Positions 11,894 through 22,410 of a stretch of DNA of 28,107 bases are shown piece after piece; within the stretch, counting starts at the first letter, position 1; each line of letters starts with the position of its first letter. A program made the translations under genes and the position numbers. The notes under the pieces were generated by a model. That model was not told the origin of the DNA. It ran no database searches and worked only from the letters and a program-made list of their open reading frames with translations. Source of the stretch: a virus; IMG/VR virus record IMGVR_UViG_3300045993_000538, positions 1 through 28,107 of that record, one strand, 5' to 3'.

Positions 11894-12072
11894 TTTATGA
11901 AGTTGATTGTATCTATTATAAGGATTGTGGTGACTGCCATCTTAAGAATAAGATTCTTTGGTTCACTAATTGCTTAGAATATAACAAAAGAACTTATGGA
12001 ATATGCAATAACAGAAAATCAAAAAAGAAAATAATATTTACAAAGAGGAAAAAGAATGGCAAAATTAAGTGA
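11890..12072 (+). CDS. Cys-rich basic mini-protein, 60 aa
   Basis: The ATG overlaps the gpF-like stop (ATGA). Five Cys lie in the first 40 residues (CIYY, CGDC, NCLEY, GICNN) and are followed by a very basic tail rich in Lys. The CxxC with flanking Cys suggests a zinc or disulphide mini-domain. The tail overlaps the following gene by 17 bases. Nucleic-acid binding is plausible from charge. No family was recognised. Confidence 0.6.
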   Translation: MIYEVDCIYYKDCGDCHLKNKILWFTNCLEYNKRTYGICNNRKSKKKIIFTKRKKNGKIK

Positions 12073-12247
12073 TGAGATGATTGAATCAATAAAGTCTGCT
12101 TGTGATAAAATTCAATATGGAAAAGTAACCATCTGTATGAATGAAACTTCTCCGAATGTTGATATTGTTGTAGAGGAAAGAAGACAATTCAAGAAGGAAG
12201 TAAAAGCCGGAATGCCAGCAAGACCGCAATTCAGAAGAGAAGGCTGA
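12056..12247 (+). CDS. Small DUF2292/YezD-like protein, 63 aa
   Basis: The central stretch IKSACDKIQYGKVTICMNETSPNVDIVVEERRQF has the layout of the DUF2292 (YezD-like) family, in which an amphipathic helix is followed by xYGxVTI, a variable strand, and an ExRxxF end. That family is small and of unknown biochemical role. The ribosome site AGAGG lies before the ATG. It is the last gene before the strong terminator at 12252-12288, so it closes the terminase-portal transcription unit. The family match is by eye and moderate. Confidence 0.58.
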   Translation: MAKLSDEMIESIKSACDKIQYGKVTICMNETSPNVDIVVEERRQFKKEVKAGMPARPQFRREG

Positions 12248-12460: not shown

Positions 12461-12619
12461 TCAAATAAATCTATAATTAAGAATATTTTTCATTGTTTCC
12501 ATCCAGTCTGAAAATCCAATCCCTCCATACAGACGGATTCTTGAATTGTTCCACATTTCATACGCTTCATCAACACTCATCTCTTTTACAGCTTCACACT
12601 TCAAATATTCTCTTTTCAT
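12461..12619 (-). CDS. Hypothetical protein, 52 aa (possibly truncated)
   Basis: The start was set at the ATG ending at 12619 because AGAGGTGAT lies just upstream. A longer in-frame start 12 codons earlier lacks a ribosome site. The product is mixed helical, with SVDEAYEMWNNSRIRLYGGIGFSDWMETMKNI. It is the last gene of the minus-strand operon. Protein-like sequence continues in frame past its TGA down to 12320, so the 52 residues may be only the first part of a longer original protein. No family was recognised. Confidence 0.5.
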   Translation of the reverse strand: MKREYLKCEAVKEMSVDEAYEMWNNSRIRLYGGIGFSDWMETMKNILNYRFI

Positions 12620-12655
12620 TTTGATCACCTCTACTAATATTATCGGGTGATTCAA

Positions 12656-13021
12656 TTATTCCTTAACAAATTTTTTAATTTTTCCTCCGTTTGCATAAAG
12701 AAGTGCATGATTGTAGCAATACGGATTTGGATCACCTTCTGCTTGGTGTGTTCCGCTCTTCCCACAAGGGGTTGTTCCTTCAAATCTTTGGACTTCTCCA
12801 CAGCAATGAACTTTTTCCGAGAAGTCTACCATATCAACAGAAGGTTTTGCCCTTTCCTTTTCAATTTCAAAGAATTTCATTCCATCCTGAGCAAGAACAT
12901 TGGCATGAACTCCGCAATATTCTTTTACCCTCTCATCAGCAAACTTGGAAAGGTGATGGCATTGCTTTCTTCCTCTGAAATAACCTTCTGTTTTGATCAT
13001 GATGTACTCACACTGTCCCAT
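12656..13021 (-). CDS. Cys/His-rich putative zinc protein, 121 aa
   Basis: The start was chosen at the ATG ending at 13021, where GGAG lies nine bases upstream; a TTG six codons earlier has no good site. The product has a CHH near residue 21, CGVH near residue 36, paired CC and C in the middle, and NPYCYNHALL near residue 106. The two CxxH elements with earlier Cys pairs suggest one or two zinc sites (Cys2-CysHis type). It starts just past the stop of the upstream basic coiled-coil gene, so translation is coupled. Function unknown. Confidence 0.6.
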   Translation of the reverse strand: MGQCEYIMIKTEGYFRGRKQCHHLSKFADERVKEYCGVHANVLAQDGMKFFEIEKERAKPSVDMVDFSEKVHCCGEVQRFEGTTPCGKSGTHQAEGDPNPYCYNHALLYANGGKIKKFVKE

Positions 13022-13022
13022 T

Positions 13023-13445
13023 TCACCTTGCTCCAACAATTTTTAATTTTTGTTCCGTCTTTGGATCACGCTTTTCAGAAACTGCCTCTTTGTAATCACC
13101 TTCATTTATCTGATATCTGAATCCGCCAACAATTTTCATGGCTTCTTCAATTATCGGAGCATGAACCACACGGAAATTTTTGAAGAAAGCTTTATCCTCT
13201 TTGTAATCTTGATATCCTTGTAGATCTGCCTTGTGTTGATCATCTCTATTCTTCAAGGCTTTCCGATAAAGCAAAATTTCTCTCCGGTGTTTTTCTACCA
13301 GTTTGGCGATATCTGCTCTGTGTTCTTTTTCCTTCTTCATCCTTAAGTCTTGAGCTTTCTTTTTCTCTTGCTGTCTTGCCTCTTTGTCTGATTTTGCCTT
13401 CTCCTTTTTAATTATTTGCTTGATGCTTGATTTCAATATGATCAT
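13023..13445 (-). CDS. Basic coiled-coil protein, 140 aa
   Basis: The start is the ATG ending at 13445, nine bases after AAGGAGG (13455-13461 on the plus strand). The first 85 residues are a long Lys/Glu/Arg/Gln helix with heptad character (KEARQQEKKKAQDLRMKKEKEH and on), strongly basic. Residues 90-140 form a separate, less charged part (FRVVHAPIIEEAMKIVGGFRYQ). It could bind nucleic acid or scaffold other proteins. It is flanked by co-oriented small genes in the minus-strand operon. No family was recognised. Confidence 0.58.
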   Translation of the reverse strand: MIILKSSIKQIIKKEKAKSDKEARQQEKKKAQDLRMKKEKEHRADIAKLVEKHRREILLYRKALKNRDDQHKADLQGYQDYKEDKAFFKNFRVVHAPIIEEAMKIVGGFRYQINEGDYKEAVSEKRDPKTEQKLKIVGAR

Positions 13446-13462
13446 AGGTCTTTTCCTCCTTA

Positions 13463-13876
13463 TTATTTTTTCTTTAACTGACACCAATCATCAAAATTTA
13501 ATCCGTCTGGGTGCTGGTTTAATCCATCAATGACTTTAAATTCAGAAAGATAAACCGATTCTACATATGAGCAGTAAGGCTTTGAACATTTTATATTCTC
13601 AAGATAAGTCTCATATTTGTTTTCAGATTCTTCCTGCTCTTGAAAATCCTTAACTGTTTCAATATGGATCTGATATTCATTATCAAAATAATCTTTCAAA
13701 CCAAGTAAAGATATTTTAAGGTTTTTCTCAAGAAAGTCTACAAAATAATCTTGGTCACCTTCTTCCATTTCATCAAAGTCTGGTGATGGATCTATCTTTA
13801 AAGACACTTTGAAAGATCTTCCTGAATCACCAACAGAAGAATCTCCGTTTGACCACACAACAAATTTAATTTCCAT
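13463..13876 (-). CDS. Acidic hypothetical protein, 137 aa
   Basis: The product is strongly acidic, with an N-terminal beta-like stretch (MEIKFVVWSNGD) and many Asp/Glu runs. Three Cys occur in the C-terminal third (CSKPYC and WCQLKK). The ATG overlaps the stop of the upstream 51-aa gene as TAATG. Acidic phage proteins of this kind sometimes mimic DNA or bind basic host factors, but nothing here shows that directly. The neighbouring gene downstream is strongly basic, so a physical pair is conceivable. Confidence 0.55.
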   Translation of the reverse strand: MEIKFVVWSNGDSSVGDSGRSFKVSLKIDPSPDFDEMEEGDQDYFVDFLEKNLKISLLGLKDYFDNEYQIHIETVKDFQEQEESENKYETYLENIKCSKPYCSYVESVYLSEFKVIDGLNQHPDGLNFDDWCQLKKK

Positions 13877-14031
13877 TATATCACCATCACTTTTGTAGAT
13901 ATTATTTTACCACATGGTTGCATACTTTTTATTATCGTTTCTTTTCCAACAACAAGAGGAAGTGAGGCAGAAATTATCTGCCCTCTCCTTAATAGATACA
14001 TTATGTTGGTTGGCGTCATTTGCTTTTTCAT
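13876..14031 (-). CDS. Small hypothetical protein, 51 aa
   Basis: This short gene fits exactly between its neighbours. Its ATG overlaps the upstream TGA (TGATG) and has AAGGAAGGG before it, and its TAA overlaps the next ATG. The product (MKKQMTPTNIMYLLRRGQII and on) is basic and amphipathic with one Cys. Perfect tiling and a good ribosome site make it likely real despite its size. Function unknown. Confidence 0.6.
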   Translation of the reverse strand: MKKQMTPTNIMYLLRRGQIISASLPLVVGKETIIKSMQPCGKIISTKVMVI

Positions 14032-14465
14032 CAATTCCCTTCCTTGTTGAAATCAATATCTTTTAATTCAGACCAAAGAAGCTGATCAGGCCACATGTTA
14101 AACTTTGCCATAATAGAATTCTGGTCTGCCATATCAACAGCAAATCTTTCTTCTATTTTCTTAATCATATTTGATCTTTCAACCTCTGATATACTTCTTT
14201 CTGTAAAGATAAAAGTAACTTGTGGAATATCGCTCCGGCTATTTGAATAATCATAAGAATCTGTCGTGCCATCAAATTTGCCGTAAACATATTTACAAGT
14301 AATGTCTTTGACTTGATCTTCTGTGTATCCGTCTGTCCATGAAACATAAATCGTTGAACCGCCGGAATACCGGCTGGTTGAAACTTTAAATTTAGATTTT
14401 GGCAATCTTGATTTAAGTTCTTTCCTAATAAGTGCTGATGCTTGAGCTGCTGAAGATAATTCCAT
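14031..14465 (-). CDS. LPD29-domain protein, 144 aa
   Basis: The start is the ATG ending at 14465, after AAAGGAGAAT; an earlier in-frame ATG would overlap the upstream gene. Residues 7-75 match the LPD29 domain (large polyvalent protein associated domain 29) by eye: ASALIRKELKSRLPKSKF, then VSTSRYSGGSTIYVSWTDG, TEDQVKDITCKY, and GKFDGTTDSYDY. LPD29 is usually found inside giant polyvalent proteins or as small proteins of phages and mobile elements, in gene sets linked to counter-defence and conflict. Its biochemical role is unknown. Here it stands alone in a minus-strand operon of other small proteins. Confidence 0.72.
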   Translation of the reverse strand: MELSSAAQASALIRKELKSRLPKSKFKVSTSRYSGGSTIYVSWTDGYTEDQVKDITCKYVYGKFDGTTDSYDYSNSRSDIPQVTFIFTERSISEVERSNMIKKIEERFAVDMADQNSIMAKFNMWPDQLLWSELKDIDFNKEGN

Positions 14466-14484
14466 TTTATTCTCCTTTGTATTT

Positions 14485-14691
14485 TTAGTCAATGATTTTG
14501 AAATCTTCTTTTTTGAATGGATATCCCCAAGTTGGTAACATGTACTCAGTATCAAGATCAATTGATCTTACTTTTCCGGTGATTGAACAAATATGGTATA
14601 ATTCACCGTATTTAATAATCACTTCATTTGAGTTATTCCAAACAACTTTCTTTCCAGCTTTGATTGCATCTTTAACTTGGGATGGCCACAT
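14485..14691 (-). CDS. Small beta-rich hypothetical protein, 68 aa
   Basis: AAGGAGAAAGAAA precedes the ATG. The product starts MWPSQVKDAIKAGKKVVWNN and continues with alternating strands (EVIIKYGELYHICSITGKVRSIDL), suggesting a compact SH3- or OB-like barrel. It lies directly upstream of the LPD29 gene in the same operon, 19 bases apart. No family was recognised. Confidence 0.58.
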   Translation of the reverse strand: MWPSQVKDAIKAGKKVVWNNSNEVIIKYGELYHICSITGKVRSIDLDTEYMLPTWGYPFKKEDFKIID

Positions 14692-14703: not shown

Positions 14704-14970
14704 TTATTCCTGATAAGACTCTATCATTAGATTTGAATTTGTTTTTAATTCTTTTTTAAACCATCTTAATATTCTATTGAGTTCAAATTCCGTTTCTGCT
14801 CTAAATTCTTTGACTTCATATTTGTCCAAATCTATTATTCTTACATATGATTTTAAATATCCAGAAAAATCTTCTTGTATGGAATCTCTTATAAAAGCTC
14901 TGGCTTCTTTTATTTTTTCTTTTGAATATTCTTGCTCTGATTCTTTTTTACCTAATTTAATTTGTTTCAT
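14704..14970 (-). CDS. First gene of the minus-strand operon, 88 aa hypothetical
   Basis: A canonical AAAGGAGATTAAG lies just before the ATG, and a clear promoter with an operator-like palindrome is at 15000-15036. The product is charged and mixed alpha/beta (KKESEQEYSKEKIKEAR, then YVRIIDLDKYEV, ending with a helix). It has no Cys and no membrane segment. As the promoter-proximal gene it is probably the most abundant product of the unit. Function unknown. Confidence 0.62.
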   Translation of the reverse strand: MKQIKLGKKESEQEYSKEKIKEARAFIRDSIQEDFSGYLKSYVRIIDLDKYEVKEFRAETEFELNRILRWFKKELKTNSNLMIESYQE

Positions 14971-14999
14971 CTTAATCTCCTTTAATTCTTTATATAACT

Positions 15000-15036
15000 A
15001 ATATAAACCAATACCGGAAAAAGTCGACAACTTTTT
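15000..15036 (-). promoter_or_regulatory. Promoter and operator-like palindrome for the 14970-12461 operon
   Basis: On the minus strand, TTGTCG (15030-15025) and TATATT (15005-15000) are spaced by 19 nt. The -35 position lies within a perfect palindrome: AAAAAGT at 15018-15024, a 5-nt centre, ACTTTTT at 15030-15036. The same arrangement with the same 19-nt spacing occurs at 16900-16936. An 11-bp direct repeat (CCAATACCGGA at 15008-15018 and 15064-15074) lies nearby. The conservation of two copies supports a shared regulator binding over the -35 region. Confidence 0.65.
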
Positions 15037-15179
15037 CTTATTATTTACAAAAAAATACACTTTCCAATACCGGATCTGTTTAATAGGTCTTTTCCATATG
15101 GTTTTATACATGCTTTTCCCATACGGAGAGCCATCCAAACCAGCATTCCCACATAAACTTACATCCCGCTTTAAAATTG

Positions 15180-15210
15180 TTGAGGGAATCCTGATTTTCA
15201 TGGATATAAT
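15180..15210 (+). promoter_or_regulatory. Probable promoter for the 15246-16481 gene
   Basis: TTGAGG (15180-15185) and a consensus TATAAT (15205-15210) are spaced by 19 nt, placing a start near 15217, upstream of the AAGGG ribosome site and ATG 15246. It diverges from the minus-strand promoter about 150 bp to the left. The spacing is longer than the ideal 17, as in the two minus-strand promoters. Confidence 0.5.
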
Positions 15211-15245
15211 ATAACAAGCCAAAATAAAAAATAAGGGATAATCAC

Positions 15246-16481
15246 ATGAAGAAGGATATCAGAAGTTCAATTTTACACCTGTGTGCAACCAACAAAGAAT
15301 TTCCTTCTTTGGTTGAGCTCATAAGTTATACAGGACAATCCGGTCACCAATTAAGAATCCAACTTGAGAAACTTTGTGAAAGAGGATTTATTGAAAGGAT
15401 GCCATCAGGAAAGTATCAGCTCAATATGTACCATGTAATAAATGGAACAGATGAGAAGGAAGAAGAAGTTGAAGAAGATTTTGTGATGGAAGCAATAAAT
15501 GAAAAAGAGATTCCAGAGACTTTCCCTGATCCTGTTTTTAATCCAATGTTGGAGAGAGCTATTGAAAAAGAAAACACAAAGATAAAAGTTTTTGAAACAA
15601 AAGGCGATAATCAAAACATTCACAAAAAAAGAATTCTTGATAATATAATAAAATTCCAAAAAAGCAAAAATGAAAAGAAGATTAAAAAGAATGATGTTGA
15701 TTTGGTTATTCCTATTACTAGAATTGCAATGTTGTTTATAGGAATTGGAGCTGGTATTGTTTCTGTTTTCTATACTTCTGTTTGGCTTCTTGAATTTCTT
15801 CCTTCGATGTTGGCAATTCTTCTTTCTACCATCATGGTTGGATTTTCAATACTTGCTTTTGAAGTCATCATCATGTTCTTTTCTGGTATGGTCTCAAAGC
15901 ATTGGTCCAGATGGGCAGTTGCTGTTGGCTTCTCCCTCCTTTGGTTAATAGTTGCTGCTTTTTCTATTACATCGACAGTTGCTGGACAATATAATCAGCA
16001 TATCAAGAATTCAAAAGAGTATGCAGAATTAAATGAAAGCAAAAGAGCTTCATCAATGACTTGGAATTCAATTCAAGAAAGAAAGAAGGAATTGGCAGAA
16101 AGAAGATCTGAGAAAAAGTCTCAACTATCGAACTTGATAAATATTTCTATTCAAGCAACAACAATAGAGGATTCAGAAAAGCACTCAAGAACTTTATCAA
16201 GTACAAGTAACCAAATCAATCAAGCAGAGAATGCCTTAAATAAAATAGAAGCAGAGATTGAGAAGATAAGAGAGGAAGAAAGAAAGGTGTTGGCAGCAAA
16301 TCCAAGCCAAGCAAATAATGATATGTCAGATATTCCTGACTTCTATTCTTGGGTTGCGAAGGTAATGGACATAAAAAAAGACCTTGCCCAATTTTGGCTC
16401 AGTCTTTTCCCAGCAATCTTTGTTGACATAATATCTCCGGTTGCTTTGGCAATAGCCATGTTCCTTAAGAAAAAGAAATAA
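15246..16481 (+). CDS. Membrane protein with N-terminal winged helix and long coiled coil, 411 aa
   Basis: Residues 5-60 look like a winged helix-turn-helix: FPSLVELISYTGQSGHQLR as helices 2-3, then LEKLCERGFIERMPSGKYQLN as the third helix and wing. An acidic linker (70-150) leads to three hydrophobic segments (about 155-177, 184-213, 222-245). Residues 253-350 form a Lys/Glu/Gln coiled coil, and a last membrane helix lies at about 382-407, ending in a basic KKKK tail. The protein would sit in the inner membrane with a DNA- or protein-binding head in the cytoplasm. It is a lone plus-strand gene between two minus-strand units with its own promoter, like a phage moron or exclusion gene. No family was recognised. 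Confidence 0.65.
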   Translation: MKKDIRSSILHLCATNKEFPSLVELISYTGQSGHQLRIQLEKLCERGFIERMPSGKYQLNMYHVINGTDEKEEEVEEDFVMEAINEKEIPETFPDPVFNPMLERAIEKENTKIKVFETKGDNQNIHKKRILDNIIKFQKSKNEKKIKKNDVDLVIPITRIAMLFIGIGAGIVSVFYTSVWLLEFLPSMLAILLSTIMVGFSILAFEVIIMFFSGMVSKHWSRWAVAVGFSLLWLIVAAFSITSTVAGQYNQHIKNSKEYAELNESKRASSMTWNSIQERKKELAERRSEKKSQLSNLINISIQATTIEDSEKHSRTLSSTSNQINQAENALNKIEAEIEKIREEERKVLAANPSQANNDMSDIPDFYSWVAKVMDIKKDLAQFWLSLFPAIFVDIISPVALAIAMFLKKKK

Positions 16482-16483
16482 TA

Positions 16484-16663
16484 TCAATCCTCATAAGAAA
16501 TTCCTTCTGGATAGCAATGAGCAAGGATTTGGTGAAAGCTACTATTATTCATAAGCTTTTCTTGGAACTGGTTCATTGCTTTTTCAGTTTTGAAAAATTT
16601 CTCTCTTTGAACCACACAATCGTGTCTGTCAACTTCTGTCCATCTTAATCCAAAATTATCAAT
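16484..16663 (-). CDS. Small protein with apparent ATT start, 59 aa
   Basis: The frame is clearly protein-like (DNFGLRWTEVDRHD, then CVVQREKFFKTEKAMNQ, ending AHCYPEGISYED). No ATG, GTG or TTG lies near its beginning. A strong AAGGAG (16676-16671) sits seven bases before ATT at 16663-16661, the most likely start. The nearest internal starts are a GTG and an ATG that would remove 16 and 29 residues. Its stop lies 2 bp from the convergent stop of the plus-strand gene. It is the second gene of the 16872 unit. Function unknown. Confidence 0.55.
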   Translation of the reverse strand: MDNFGLRWTEVDRHDCVVQREKFFKTEKAMNQFQEKLMNNSSFHQILAHCYPEGISYED

Positions 16664-16674
16664 TTTTATTCTCC

Positions 16675-16872
16675 TTAAACTATTTCTACAAAAGATCCAG
16701 TTGGAACAATAAGATTGATTCCAAATCCGTTGCTAAAAGCTGTTGATCCTTCTTTTCTTGTGATCCAATAAACTAAAAGATATTTTACTTTTCCTTTTTC
16801 GATCCCGACCGGAATCCGGTGACCAACTCCAACTTCTGATTCTATAACTTTTCTAAGACTTTGCTTTTTCAT
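16675..16872 (-). CDS. Small hypothetical protein, 65 aa
   Basis: This is the first gene after the promoter at 16900-16936, with AAAGAGGT just before the ATG. The product is basic at the start (MKKQSLRKVIESEVGVGHRI) and beta-rich after (KVKYLLVYWITRKEG, then INLIVPTGSFVEIV). No metal motif or membrane helix is present. Its stop is immediately followed by the ribosome site of the next gene, so the two are translated together. Confidence 0.6.
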   Translation of the reverse strand: MKKQSLRKVIESEVGVGHRIPVGIEKGKVKYLLVYWITRKEGSTAFSNGFGINLIVPTGSFVEIV

Positions 16873-16899
16873 ATGACCTCTTTAATTCGTTATATAGCT

Positions 16900-16936
16900 A
16901 ATATACTGAATGCTTTGTAAAAGTCGACAACTTTTT
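16900..16936 (-). promoter_or_regulatory. Second copy of the palindromic promoter, for the 16872-16484 pair
   Basis: On the minus strand, TTGTCG (16930-16925) and TATATT (16905-16900) are again spaced by exactly 19 nt. AAAAGT (16919-16924) and ACTTTT (16930-16935) form perfect arms around the same CGACA centre found at 15025-15029. The 5' leaders after the two promoters are also similar (a TATA-rich stretch and AATTAAAG before the ribosome site), so this is a duplicated control region. Confidence 0.65.
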
Positions 16937-17086
16937 CTTTATTTTTGTAATTTTTTTTGAAAAAAGCAGACTTTACATCCATAAAGACATATATTTGTAA
17001 AAAAAGACTTTACTTTCCTTATATCCTTAAGTACGTTGTATGTAATTTCATTTTATCTCTTTAATTTTGACGCTTACTGTTAACAG

Positions 17087-17118
17087 GAGCACTCTTCCAA
17101 GGGTGCTCTTTCTTTTTT
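17087..17118 (+). terminator. Intrinsic terminator upstream of the tail-fibre genes
   Basis: GAGCACTC (17087-17094) pairs with GGGTGCTC (17101-17108), with one G-T pair and a 6-nt loop, and TTTCTTTTTT follows (17109-17118). It reads as a classic plus-strand terminator. The ribosome site of the next gene begins three bases later, so the terminator may block incoming transcription or act as an attenuator for the late genes. Confidence 0.8.
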
Positions 17119-20054: not shown

Positions 20055-21088
20055 TGGTTAAAACAGTGAGAACTTCTGGAGGTGATTATACAACCTTTGC
20101 TTCTGCTGTTGCTGGAGAGGTAGGTGATTTGGTCACACTTACAAGAAATCTTACTATTGATTGCCAGACAGGAGCTGATACCACTGCAGTCAACATAACC
20201 GGATTCGTTACAAATGCAACTTACTTCTTAACCGTAAAAGGCAATGCTGGATATACTTTATCTGTAAGCAATAATACAGCTGTGACAGTTAATTCTAATT
20301 TTACTGTGATTGATGGAATGAATATATCGCTTTCATCAATGTCAGCAAATTATCAACGTTGTGTTTATTTTGCCGGAGCAGCATCAGGAAATATTCACGA
20401 ATTAAAGAATTGTATTCTGAAAGGATTTGCTTCTGCTACATATAGAAGTAGAATTGTTGAGTGCTCATCTTCAAGAACTGTTGAAATATCGAATTGTGTT
20501 ATGTATGGGGCAACTGGAGCACAAGCATCATTAGCAAATGCTTGTTTGTGCAATACTGCTGATACAGTTTATCTTTATGATTGCACCATTTATGGAGCAT
20601 ATAACAGTTTATATCTGACTGGTGGTACAACTGTATGCAAAGGAAATATATTTGCTCCATCAAATATAGTTGGAACAGGAACGTTGACTGGAAGTAATTA
20701 TAATGCGACAACAAAAGCAGTTTGTACTGGTGGTGCAAATGATAGAGTAAATCAGACATTTACTTTTACTGATGCAACTAATGGTAATTTCCTTTTAACA
20801 TCAGGAGATACAGGTGCAAGAACTTTTGGAGTTGATCTTTCAGCAGATGCAAACTATCCAGTATCAAAAGATATAACCGGATACACAAGAACATACCCAA
20901 CAGATATTGGAGCATATCAGATTCAATCAGGAACAACTTATGGTGCTGAGTTATATCGTTATGAAAGTGGAGTATGGACAAAGTATAAAGCATATGAGTA
21001 TATCGGATCTGCCTTTACAGCAACCGGAGTTGAAACATATGAATATATTAGCGGTGCTTGGAAATTAGTGGACACAACAGGATTATAA
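20045..21088 (+). CDS. Tailspike-like beta-helix protein, 347 aa
   Basis: The sequence opens with VVVKTVRTSGGDYTTFASAV, the start of many parallel beta-helix proteins (pectate lyase-like). It continues with repeating short strands and turns (NITGFVTNATYFLTVKGNAGYTLSVSNNT-like rungs), Asn ladders and several aromatic steps. The C-terminal 50 residues differ and contain two related units, YRYESGVWTKYK and YEYISGAWKL, likely an adhesion or trimerisation end. It probably acts as a receptor-binding or glycan-binding spike; no catalytic residues were identified. It is the last gene before the head protease. Confidence 0.68.
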   Translation: MAVVVKTVRTSGGDYTTFASAVAGEVGDLVTLTRNLTIDCQTGADTTAVNITGFVTNATYFLTVKGNAGYTLSVSNNTAVTVNSNFTVIDGMNISLSSMSANYQRCVYFAGAASGNIHELKNCILKGFASATYRSRIVECSSSRTVEISNCVMYGATGAQASLANACLCNTADTVYLYDCTIYGAYNSLYLTGGTTVCKGNIFAPSNIVGTGTLTGSNYNATTKAVCTGGANDRVNQTFTFTDATNGNFLLTSGDTGARTFGVDLSADANYPVSKDITGYTRTYPTDIGAYQIQSGTTYGAELYRYESGVWTKYKAYEYIGSAFTATGVETYEYISGAWKLVDTTGL

Positions 21089-21102
21089 AAGGAGGATTAT
21101 TT

Positions 21103-22410
21103 ATGGAGCTTAATGAAGATTTGAAAAATATGTGCCCTGAGTGTAAACAGAAAGTTGTATCTTCTGAGAATACTTTATGTGATGCTTGCGGATCTAAGAA
21201 AAAACCTTCGATGGATTCTGCTGAGCGTGTAGACTCTTATATGCCAACAGAGTGGATGGCAAATAAGTTTGAAAAAACTCCTGAAGGTTATTTGAAAGGA
21301 AGAGCGATTGTTACAAACATCGGCGTTTTTCAATACCGGAATATGGATGGATCTACAAGAAAAGAATTGAGATTGCCAGAAGAGGTATTTGCTTATGACT
21401 CTCTTGAATCTCTTAAGCTCAAGCCAGTAACAAATGATCATCCATCAGAATCTGTTAACAATGAAAATGTTAAGGATCTTTCTGTTGGTTCTACCGGATC
21501 GAACGTAACATCAACAACTCAAGCATATTCATCAAATGGACAATACATTCCTTCTGAAAATATATCAGACGGAATTCACGTTGCTGTTGATATGGTTGTT
21601 ACGGATGCTTCAGCAGTTGTGGCAGTTGAAGAAGGGAAAGCAGCTTTGAGTTGTGGATATAATTGTGATCTTGAATTAGCAAAACCAGGATCTGTTTATA
21701 TGGGAATGCCTTACGATTATATTCAAAGAAATATCCGATACAATCATGTGGCAATTGTTGATGCTGCCCGTGCCGGAGATAATGCAAAAATAAGATTGGA
21801 TAGTATGGACAGCAACGGTGCTGTTCTTATGAATAAAGAACACTCAAAAAAGGAGGACACACAGATGGTCTTGAAAAAAGTACATCTTGACGGAGTTGAT
21901 TATGATGCTGAAGCTCCTGTCATAACAGCACTGGTAACAGCAAAGGATCGTGCAGACAAAGCAGAGGATTCTATCAAAGAACTCACTGCAACAATTTCTT
22001 CAACTCAAGCAGAGAAAGATACAGCACTTGCAAAAGTTGACTCTCTTTCTAAAGAACTTGAGGAAGTAAAAGCTGCTCAGCTTGATCAATCAAAAATTGA
22101 TTCTGCTGTTGAAGCAAAACTCAAGCTTGTAAAAACAGCAACTCTTGCTGGTGTAGAAGTAAAAGACGGAATGACAGATGCAGAAATAACTGTTGCTGTT
22201 ATCAAATCGGCTTTCCCTTCTGCCAATCTTGATGGCAAAGATTCAGTTTATCTTGCTGCACGTTTCGATGGTGCTGTTGAAATGCTTTCTGAAAAGAAAG
22301 AAAACAACAGTGACGTTCAGACGGTTGTCAGTGGAGAATTTCTTGGACAGCCAAAAGCTGATTCAAGTGATGCACGAAAAAGGTATGTTGACCAATTCAA
22401 CAAAAAATAA
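21103..22410 (+). CDS. Prohead protease/scaffold fusion, DUF2213 family, 435 aa
   Basis: The start is ATG 21103 with AAAGGAGGA just upstream. Residues 11-29 form a zinc ribbon (CPEC, CDAC). Residues 55-235 match DUF2213: TPEGYLKG, then FQYRN, LPEEVF, KPVTNDHP (with H113) and GKAALSCGYNCDL (with S183), a His/Ser pair in keeping with an assembly protease. NHVAIVDAARAG at 214-225 completes the domain. Residues 260-400 are a long helical coiled region typical of scaffold. The likely job is to template capsid assembly and then cut the scaffold out. An internal start divides protease and scaffold. It precedes the cement and capsid genes, the normal order. Confidence 0.85.
   Translation: MELNEDLKNMCPECKQKVVSSENTLCDACGSKKKPSMDSAERVDSYMPTEWMANKFEKTPEGYLKGRAIVTNIGVFQYRNMDGSTRKELRLPEEVFAYDSLESLKLKPVTNDHPSESVNNENVKDLSVGSTGSNVTSTTQAYSSNGQYIPSENISDGIHVAVDMVVTDASAVVAVEEGKAALSCGYNCDLELAKPGSVYMGMPYDYIQRNIRYNHVAIVDAARAGDNAKIRLDSMDSNGAVLMNKEHSKKEDTQMVLKKVHLDGVDYDAEAPVITALVTAKDRADKAEDSIKELTATISSTQAEKDTALAKVDSLSKELEEVKAAQLDQSKIDSAVEAKLKLVKTATLAGVEVKDGMTDAEITVAVIKSAFPSANLDGKDSVYLAARFDGAVEMLSEKKENNSDVQTVVSGEFLGQPKADSSDARKRYVDQFNKK
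21865..22410 (+). CDS. Scaffold protein from an internal start, 181 aa
   Basis: Within the fusion gene, AGGAGG at 21851-21856 lies eight bases before ATG 21865, in the same frame as the full protein. The resulting 181-residue product starts MVLKKVHLDGVDYDAEAPVI and contains just the coiled scaffold half without the protease domain. Nested scaffold genes are known in other phages, for example lambda Nu3 inside gene C. Production here is inferred from the strong ribosome site. Confidence 0.7.
   Translation: MVLKKVHLDGVDYDAEAPVITALVTAKDRADKAEDSIKELTATISSTQAEKDTALAKVDSLSKELEEVKAAQLDQSKIDSAVEAKLKLVKTATLAGVEVKDGMTDAEITVAVIKSAFPSANLDGKDSVYLAARFDGAVEMLSEKKENNSDVQTVVSGEFLGQPKADSSDARKRYVDQFNKK

Follow-up and report, generated by a model that had tools for sequence, protein, structure and literature searches.

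Accessory island and its two minus-strand units

The window, meaning the whole stretch of DNA analysed here, is the 28,107-base virus record IMGVR_UViG_3300045993_000538, a linear phage fragment. It carries a Mu-like head module (terminase, portal and Mu F-like protein, and further downstream genes that are conserved in related phages). An island of about 8.7 kb lies between a small gene (12056-12247) and a protease-like gene (21058-22410), whose counterparts are directly adjacent, without the island, in most relatives found by capsid. Both minus-strand units of the window (units A and B) are located inside this accessory island, flanked by conserved head genes, and antisense genes were also found at the island position in three other loci (L009, L025, and L051). 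The nearest capsid in a named assembly came from a Spirochaetaceae metagenome bin (56%) and some of the terminase matches were Leptospira phages, hints from which the host can only be guessed.

The features of the locus are listed in Table 1. The first genes of both units had no Pfam match and no relative in viral contigs. The LPD29-domain gene of unit A likewise had no relative in viral contigs; a study of polyvalent proteins in phage and plasmid conflict (PMC5512222) mentions this domain. For the likely second gene of unit B, the best-placed start is an ATT, possibly a rare start codon. The gene encoded between the two units, at 15246-16481, specifies a protein with a winged-helix domain and hydrophobic helices. 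Downstream of it, ahead of the next plus-strand genes, we noted a strong intrinsic terminator (17085-17110, plus strand). A search against Rfam gave no match.

Table 1. Coordinates of the two promoter copies, the units behind them, and the gene between the units
Feature	Position	Strand	Description
Dyad element, copy 1	15018..15036	-	Minus strand AAAAAGT-TGTCG-ACTTTTT; plus strand AAAAAGT-CGACA-ACTTTTT
Dyad element, copy 2	16919..16936	-	Plus strand AAAAGT-CGACA-ACTTTT(T); one arm base shorter than copy 1
-35 hexamer, copy 1	15022..15027	-	TCGACT, in right half of dyad; promoter scan, register shared with relatives
-35 hexamer, copy 2	16922..16927	-	TCGACT; promoter scan, register shared with relatives
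-10 hexamer, copy 1	15000..15005	-	TATATT, 16 nt from TCGACT
-10 hexamer, copy 2	16900..16905	-	TATATT, 16 nt from TCGACT
-10 and leader block, copy 1	14980..15005	-	TATATTAGTTATATAAAGAATTAAAG; 24/26 identical to copy 2
-10 and leader block, copy 2	16880..16905	-	TATATTAGCTATATAACGAATTAAAG; 24/26 identical to copy 1
Unit A, first gene	14704..14970	-	88 aa; ORF with upstream RBS
Unit A, remainder	12461..14691	-	Six further ORFs; ORF list
Unit A, LPD29-domain gene	14031-14561	-	LPD29, E 3.9e-15
Unit B, first gene	16675..16872	-	65 aa; ORF list
Unit B, likely second gene	16484..16663	-	59 aa; open frame, apparent ATT start after AAGGAG
Candidate regulator	15246..16481	+	411 aa; N-terminal winged helix, hydrophobic helices, coiled coil, C-terminal hydrophobic helix; family alignment

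Two promoter copies at a fixed distance

Both promoter copies lie upstream of an RBS and a start codon. A sequence-only reading of the window had described two promoters 1,900 bp apart with similar leaders, and both points held: the distance is exactly 1,900 bp for the dyad and leader blocks alike, and the -10 and leader blocks are identical at 24/26 positions. The palindrome, which was said to be the same at both sites, is kept over the -35 at 18/19 positions, with one arm a base shorter in copy 2. Its GTCGAC core occurs nowhere else in the window, as had been noted. The remaining parts, compared in the same ungapped manner, were at background level, namely the 60 nt upstream (17/60), the spacer (2/13), and the first 60 coding nt (13/60). 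Because two kept blocks at a fixed spacing enclose unrelated DNA, the pattern points to selection on the promoter and not to a fresh duplication. An exact 20-nt repeat of any kind arose in 5 of 150 order-2 shuffles, and the dyad repeat by itself is only unlikely as a chance event. A chance origin of the dyad repeat together with a second block at 24/26, at the same 1,900 spacing and with both copies before an RBS and start, we judge to be negligible. As a separate observation, a direct repeat, CCAATACCGG, flanks dyad copy 1 at 15009-15018 and 15065-15074 and is absent at copy 2.

The promoter hexamers had been read as TTGTCG-19-TATATT. These letters are present in both copies, but the register is probably wrong, since a 19-nt spacer is outside the usual sigma70 range and the promoter scan picked TCGACT-16-TATATT in its place. 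The latter has 9/12 consensus matches to the sigma70 type in both copies, and its spacing falls within 16-18 nt. In the related phage G005, the TTTACT of the palindrome AAAAGTAC-TTTACT-TTT is 17 nt from TATATT, and TTGACT occupies the equivalent place in the palindrome of G068. Because these hexamers align in the TCGACT register, we placed the -35 in the right half of the dyad. A likeness of TTGTCGA to the Spo0A box was rejected, as it is missing in the relatives. The comparison of the two copies supports a single dyad-bearing promoter type, which both minus-strand units would share.

The same design in related phages

The exact pattern of the element plus its -10 had no match in the viral contig collection, and a BLASTN search of the region against phages also returned none. 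Scanning related genomes for the palindrome, as the sequence-only reading had proposed, did recover the design ahead of unrelated small genes on either strand, with a spacing of 16-17 nt from the -35 and not the 19 nt expected. The common design consists of AAAAGT-N5-ACTTTT, whose right half contains the -35, a -10 at 16-17 nt, and then an RBS and start. In G005 (64 kb), AAAAGTACTTTACTTTT occurs at four places, with further variants, against 0 for a control pattern. Each of the four sites has a TAnnnT -10 at a distance of 17 nt; three are on the main strand and one precedes an island antisense gene. Dyad promoters are scattered over this genome ahead of small genes on both strands. That antisense gene (G005 20195-20869, plus strand; 2195-2869 in L097) encodes a UPF0150/HicB-like domain. 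Several sites per genome were found in the 28-kb window (two), G005 (four or more), G068 (two or three), and G073 (three to five), and further dyad promoters were detected in G069/G070 and G074. Matches to AAAGT-N5-ACTTT in G001/G037 lie inside a head gene and were taken as chance.

The island position itself also carries such promoters in other phages. L009 (G006) has one dyad site, AAAAGTAGTAGACTATT, with TAGACT-17-TATTAT, before an antisense unit at the same island position. L051 (G003) has a different palindrome, AGTACATAWATATATGTACT, which occurs three times (2566, 2974, and 4798) between TTGACA and TACTAT and is confined to the antisense units of the island. At this spot, antisense accessory units therefore repeatedly have a promoter with a dyad, of varying sequence. 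Of the island genes in the window, only 15246-16481 has a homologue in G005 or G003, which indicates that the promoter is shared and not the genes downstream of it. On these comparisons, the conserved phage promoter class is real, and it is probably an operator regulon. The recurrence of the same promoter class in relatives fits the small regulon under one regulator that had been proposed for the window; its shared dyad promoter stands, and the regulator is what we infer.

Association with a membrane winged-helix protein

Homologues of 15246-16481 were found in G005, G066, G067, G068, G044, and eight further records (including G069/G070, G072, G073, and G074), and none were found in named bacterial genomes. 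Where read closely, the homologue genes adjoin replication or repair genes. We scored a dyad site when its arms had no more than one mismatch and it also had a -35, a TAnnnT -10, and an RBS-start. By this measure, 8 of the 13 records with a homologue (carriers) held dyad promoters (17 sites; 0-1 in shuffles); one of the eight, G006 (L009), counts as a carrier only because a contig from the same metagenome, G071, holds the gene, which the L009 fragment itself lacks. No dyad promoter was detected in 36 AT-rich non-carrier loci, each a stretch of up to about 20 kb with the capsid gene in it, as against whole carrier records. Because these loci are short, we also read 12 long or whole AT-rich non-carrier records, and none had a full dyad promoter (0/12); two sites had suitable arms but no RBS-start. 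The comparison of 8/13 with 0/12 gives a one-sided Fisher value of about 0.001, which ignores the ancestry that the records share. Among promoter-like sites in carriers, 10 had both arms, 3 the left arm only, 16 the right arm only, and 159 neither (odds ratio 33), whereas those in non-carriers included 12 left arms and 0 arm pairs. Although shared ancestry means that these association values overstate the case, the dyad appears almost confined to phages with a 15246-16481 homologue, which supports a phage regulon.

The members of this protein family share a winged helix at the N terminus, with hydrophobic helices and a coiled coil after it. The N-terminal domain of the window protein matched the profile of 6sbs, of the GntR/YtrA type (E 7.5e-5), and its model showed an H-H-H-E-E fold (pLDDT about 76-89) that matched the LexA and AraR DNA-binding domains over about 60 residues (probability 1.00 and 0.98). 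The remainder of the model gave no meaningful fold match. Pfam GntR matched weakly in 2 of 12 family members (best E 0.0045), and the window protein had no match. In the window, G072, and G073, a dyad- or half-type promoter lies 200-300 bp upstream of the carrier gene and points away from it. G072 has mostly half-sites, AAAATAACTTGACTTTT. A literature search for membrane winged-helix phage regulators found none in the library searched. The protein had already been named as one possible regulator, and its co-occurrence with dyad promoters makes it a good candidate for binding the dyad; on the other side, the residues of the recognition helix vary widely among carriers of the same dyad, and G067 and G044 encode a homologue without having the dyad.

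Interpretation and alternative explanations

The best overall explanation, to which we give about an even chance with a dyad-binding regulator included, is that both sites are instances of one class of phage promoter with a dyad over the -35. Phages of this group would place such a promoter, a sigma70-type promoter whose -35 is overlapped by AAAAGT-N5-ACTTTT, before small units of accessory genes, here the two minus-strand island units. A dimeric phage DNA-binding protein on the dyad may block RNA polymerase, and the units might fire together early and then be shut off together. No tyrosine integrase (PF00589) was detected in 13 related records, the window itself being a fragment, and no CI-like repressor (HTH_3) exceeded the cut-off in the same 13 records; for this reason, control of early genes appears likelier than a role in lysogeny or immunity. 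The membrane-anchored protein 15246-16481 is the leading candidate for the dyad-binding protein, at odds that we put well below even. The fuller picture of a membrane-anchored one-component phage regulator, acting on dyads over the -35 of scattered early promoters with control and perhaps tethering at the membrane, we regard as rather doubtful.

A serious rival, possible although we lean against it, is that these are plain strong sigma70 promoters in which a UP-like A-tract, the -35, and a T-tract mimic a dyad, with no dedicated regulator. The left arm AAAAAGT does precede the -35 TTTACA in the non-carriers G016 and G021, and since it recurs there without the right arm, an upstream promoter element may account for part of the dyad. 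G009 and G072 also show an A-tract, -35, and T-tract without the GT, and repeated promoters are common in this phage group. However, the arms go together in carriers, the sixth base of their -35 is the T that the dyad requires and not the consensus A, and the window -35 departs further from consensus while its 19-nt block stays at 18/19. If a dyad-binding protein is accepted, it could still be another phage or host regulator, an unlikely alternative that draws on the same poor conservation of the recognition helix despite a supported dyad pattern. Because the window is a 28-kb linear fragment and relatives reach about 60 kb, other regulators may lie outside the record; the search for HTH_3 proteins and the co-occurrence with the dyad instead favour the membrane protein.

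Two further readings explain less. That the repeated blocks serve a sigma factor encoded by the phage, as its -35 and -10 sites, seems improbable: Sigma70 region 2 proteins are present in G003, G044, G067, G069, and G070, but the sigma gene does not track the dyad (it is present in G044, G067, and G003, where such a site is missing), and the hexamers fit ordinary sigma70. A recent functionless duplication of a cassette end would account for the equal spacing of both blocks, yet we find it very hard to credit when the spacer and flanks are at background against two blocks over 90% identical, and when the same design occurs in other phages.

Relation to known systems

The nearest analogue to the dyad promoter class is the SPBRE element of SPbeta, which is bound by the master repressor MrpR (PMC10516654); it too is short and recurs at the promoters of several phage genes, most of them uncharacterised. 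MrpR, the repressor of a temperate phage, has the fold of a tyrosine recombinase, whereas no tyrosine integrase was found in the relatives here and the candidate is a membrane-anchored winged-helix protein with putative binding. The stoperators of cluster A mycobacteriophages are also regulator sites repeated across a phage genome, but they are asymmetric, are bound by a monomeric repressor, and also stop elongation (PMC9283540), in contrast to the dyad-symmetric element seen here in promoters and overlapping the -35. The N-terminal domain of 15246-16481 resembles the fold of GntR/YtrA-type regulators; its remainder, however, consists of hydrophobic helices and a coiled coil and not a ligand-binding domain, and the recognition residues are not conserved. 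Operators of GntR regulators are dyads of the GT..AC form.

To our knowledge, almost nothing is known of the promoter logic of uncultured phages. The present sites offer a promoter class that can be tested and that occurs in several phage lineages. It would mark small unknown genes that are probably switched together, perhaps for host takeover or anti-defence, and the switch may be a membrane winged-helix protein family not described before.

Repeated promoters of other kinds were also observed. In G044, a near-identical promoter region of about 90 nt with TACTTAACGGATTTTAAGTA stands before two different genes (L119 9955 and L120 16702). G009, G016, G021, and G024 each have a repeated promoter of their own (L147-L149, L153-L155, L162-L164, and L168-L170), with AAAAAGTGCTTTACA in G016 and G021 and AAAAAGAGATTGACAAAATATAAA occurring six times in G024.
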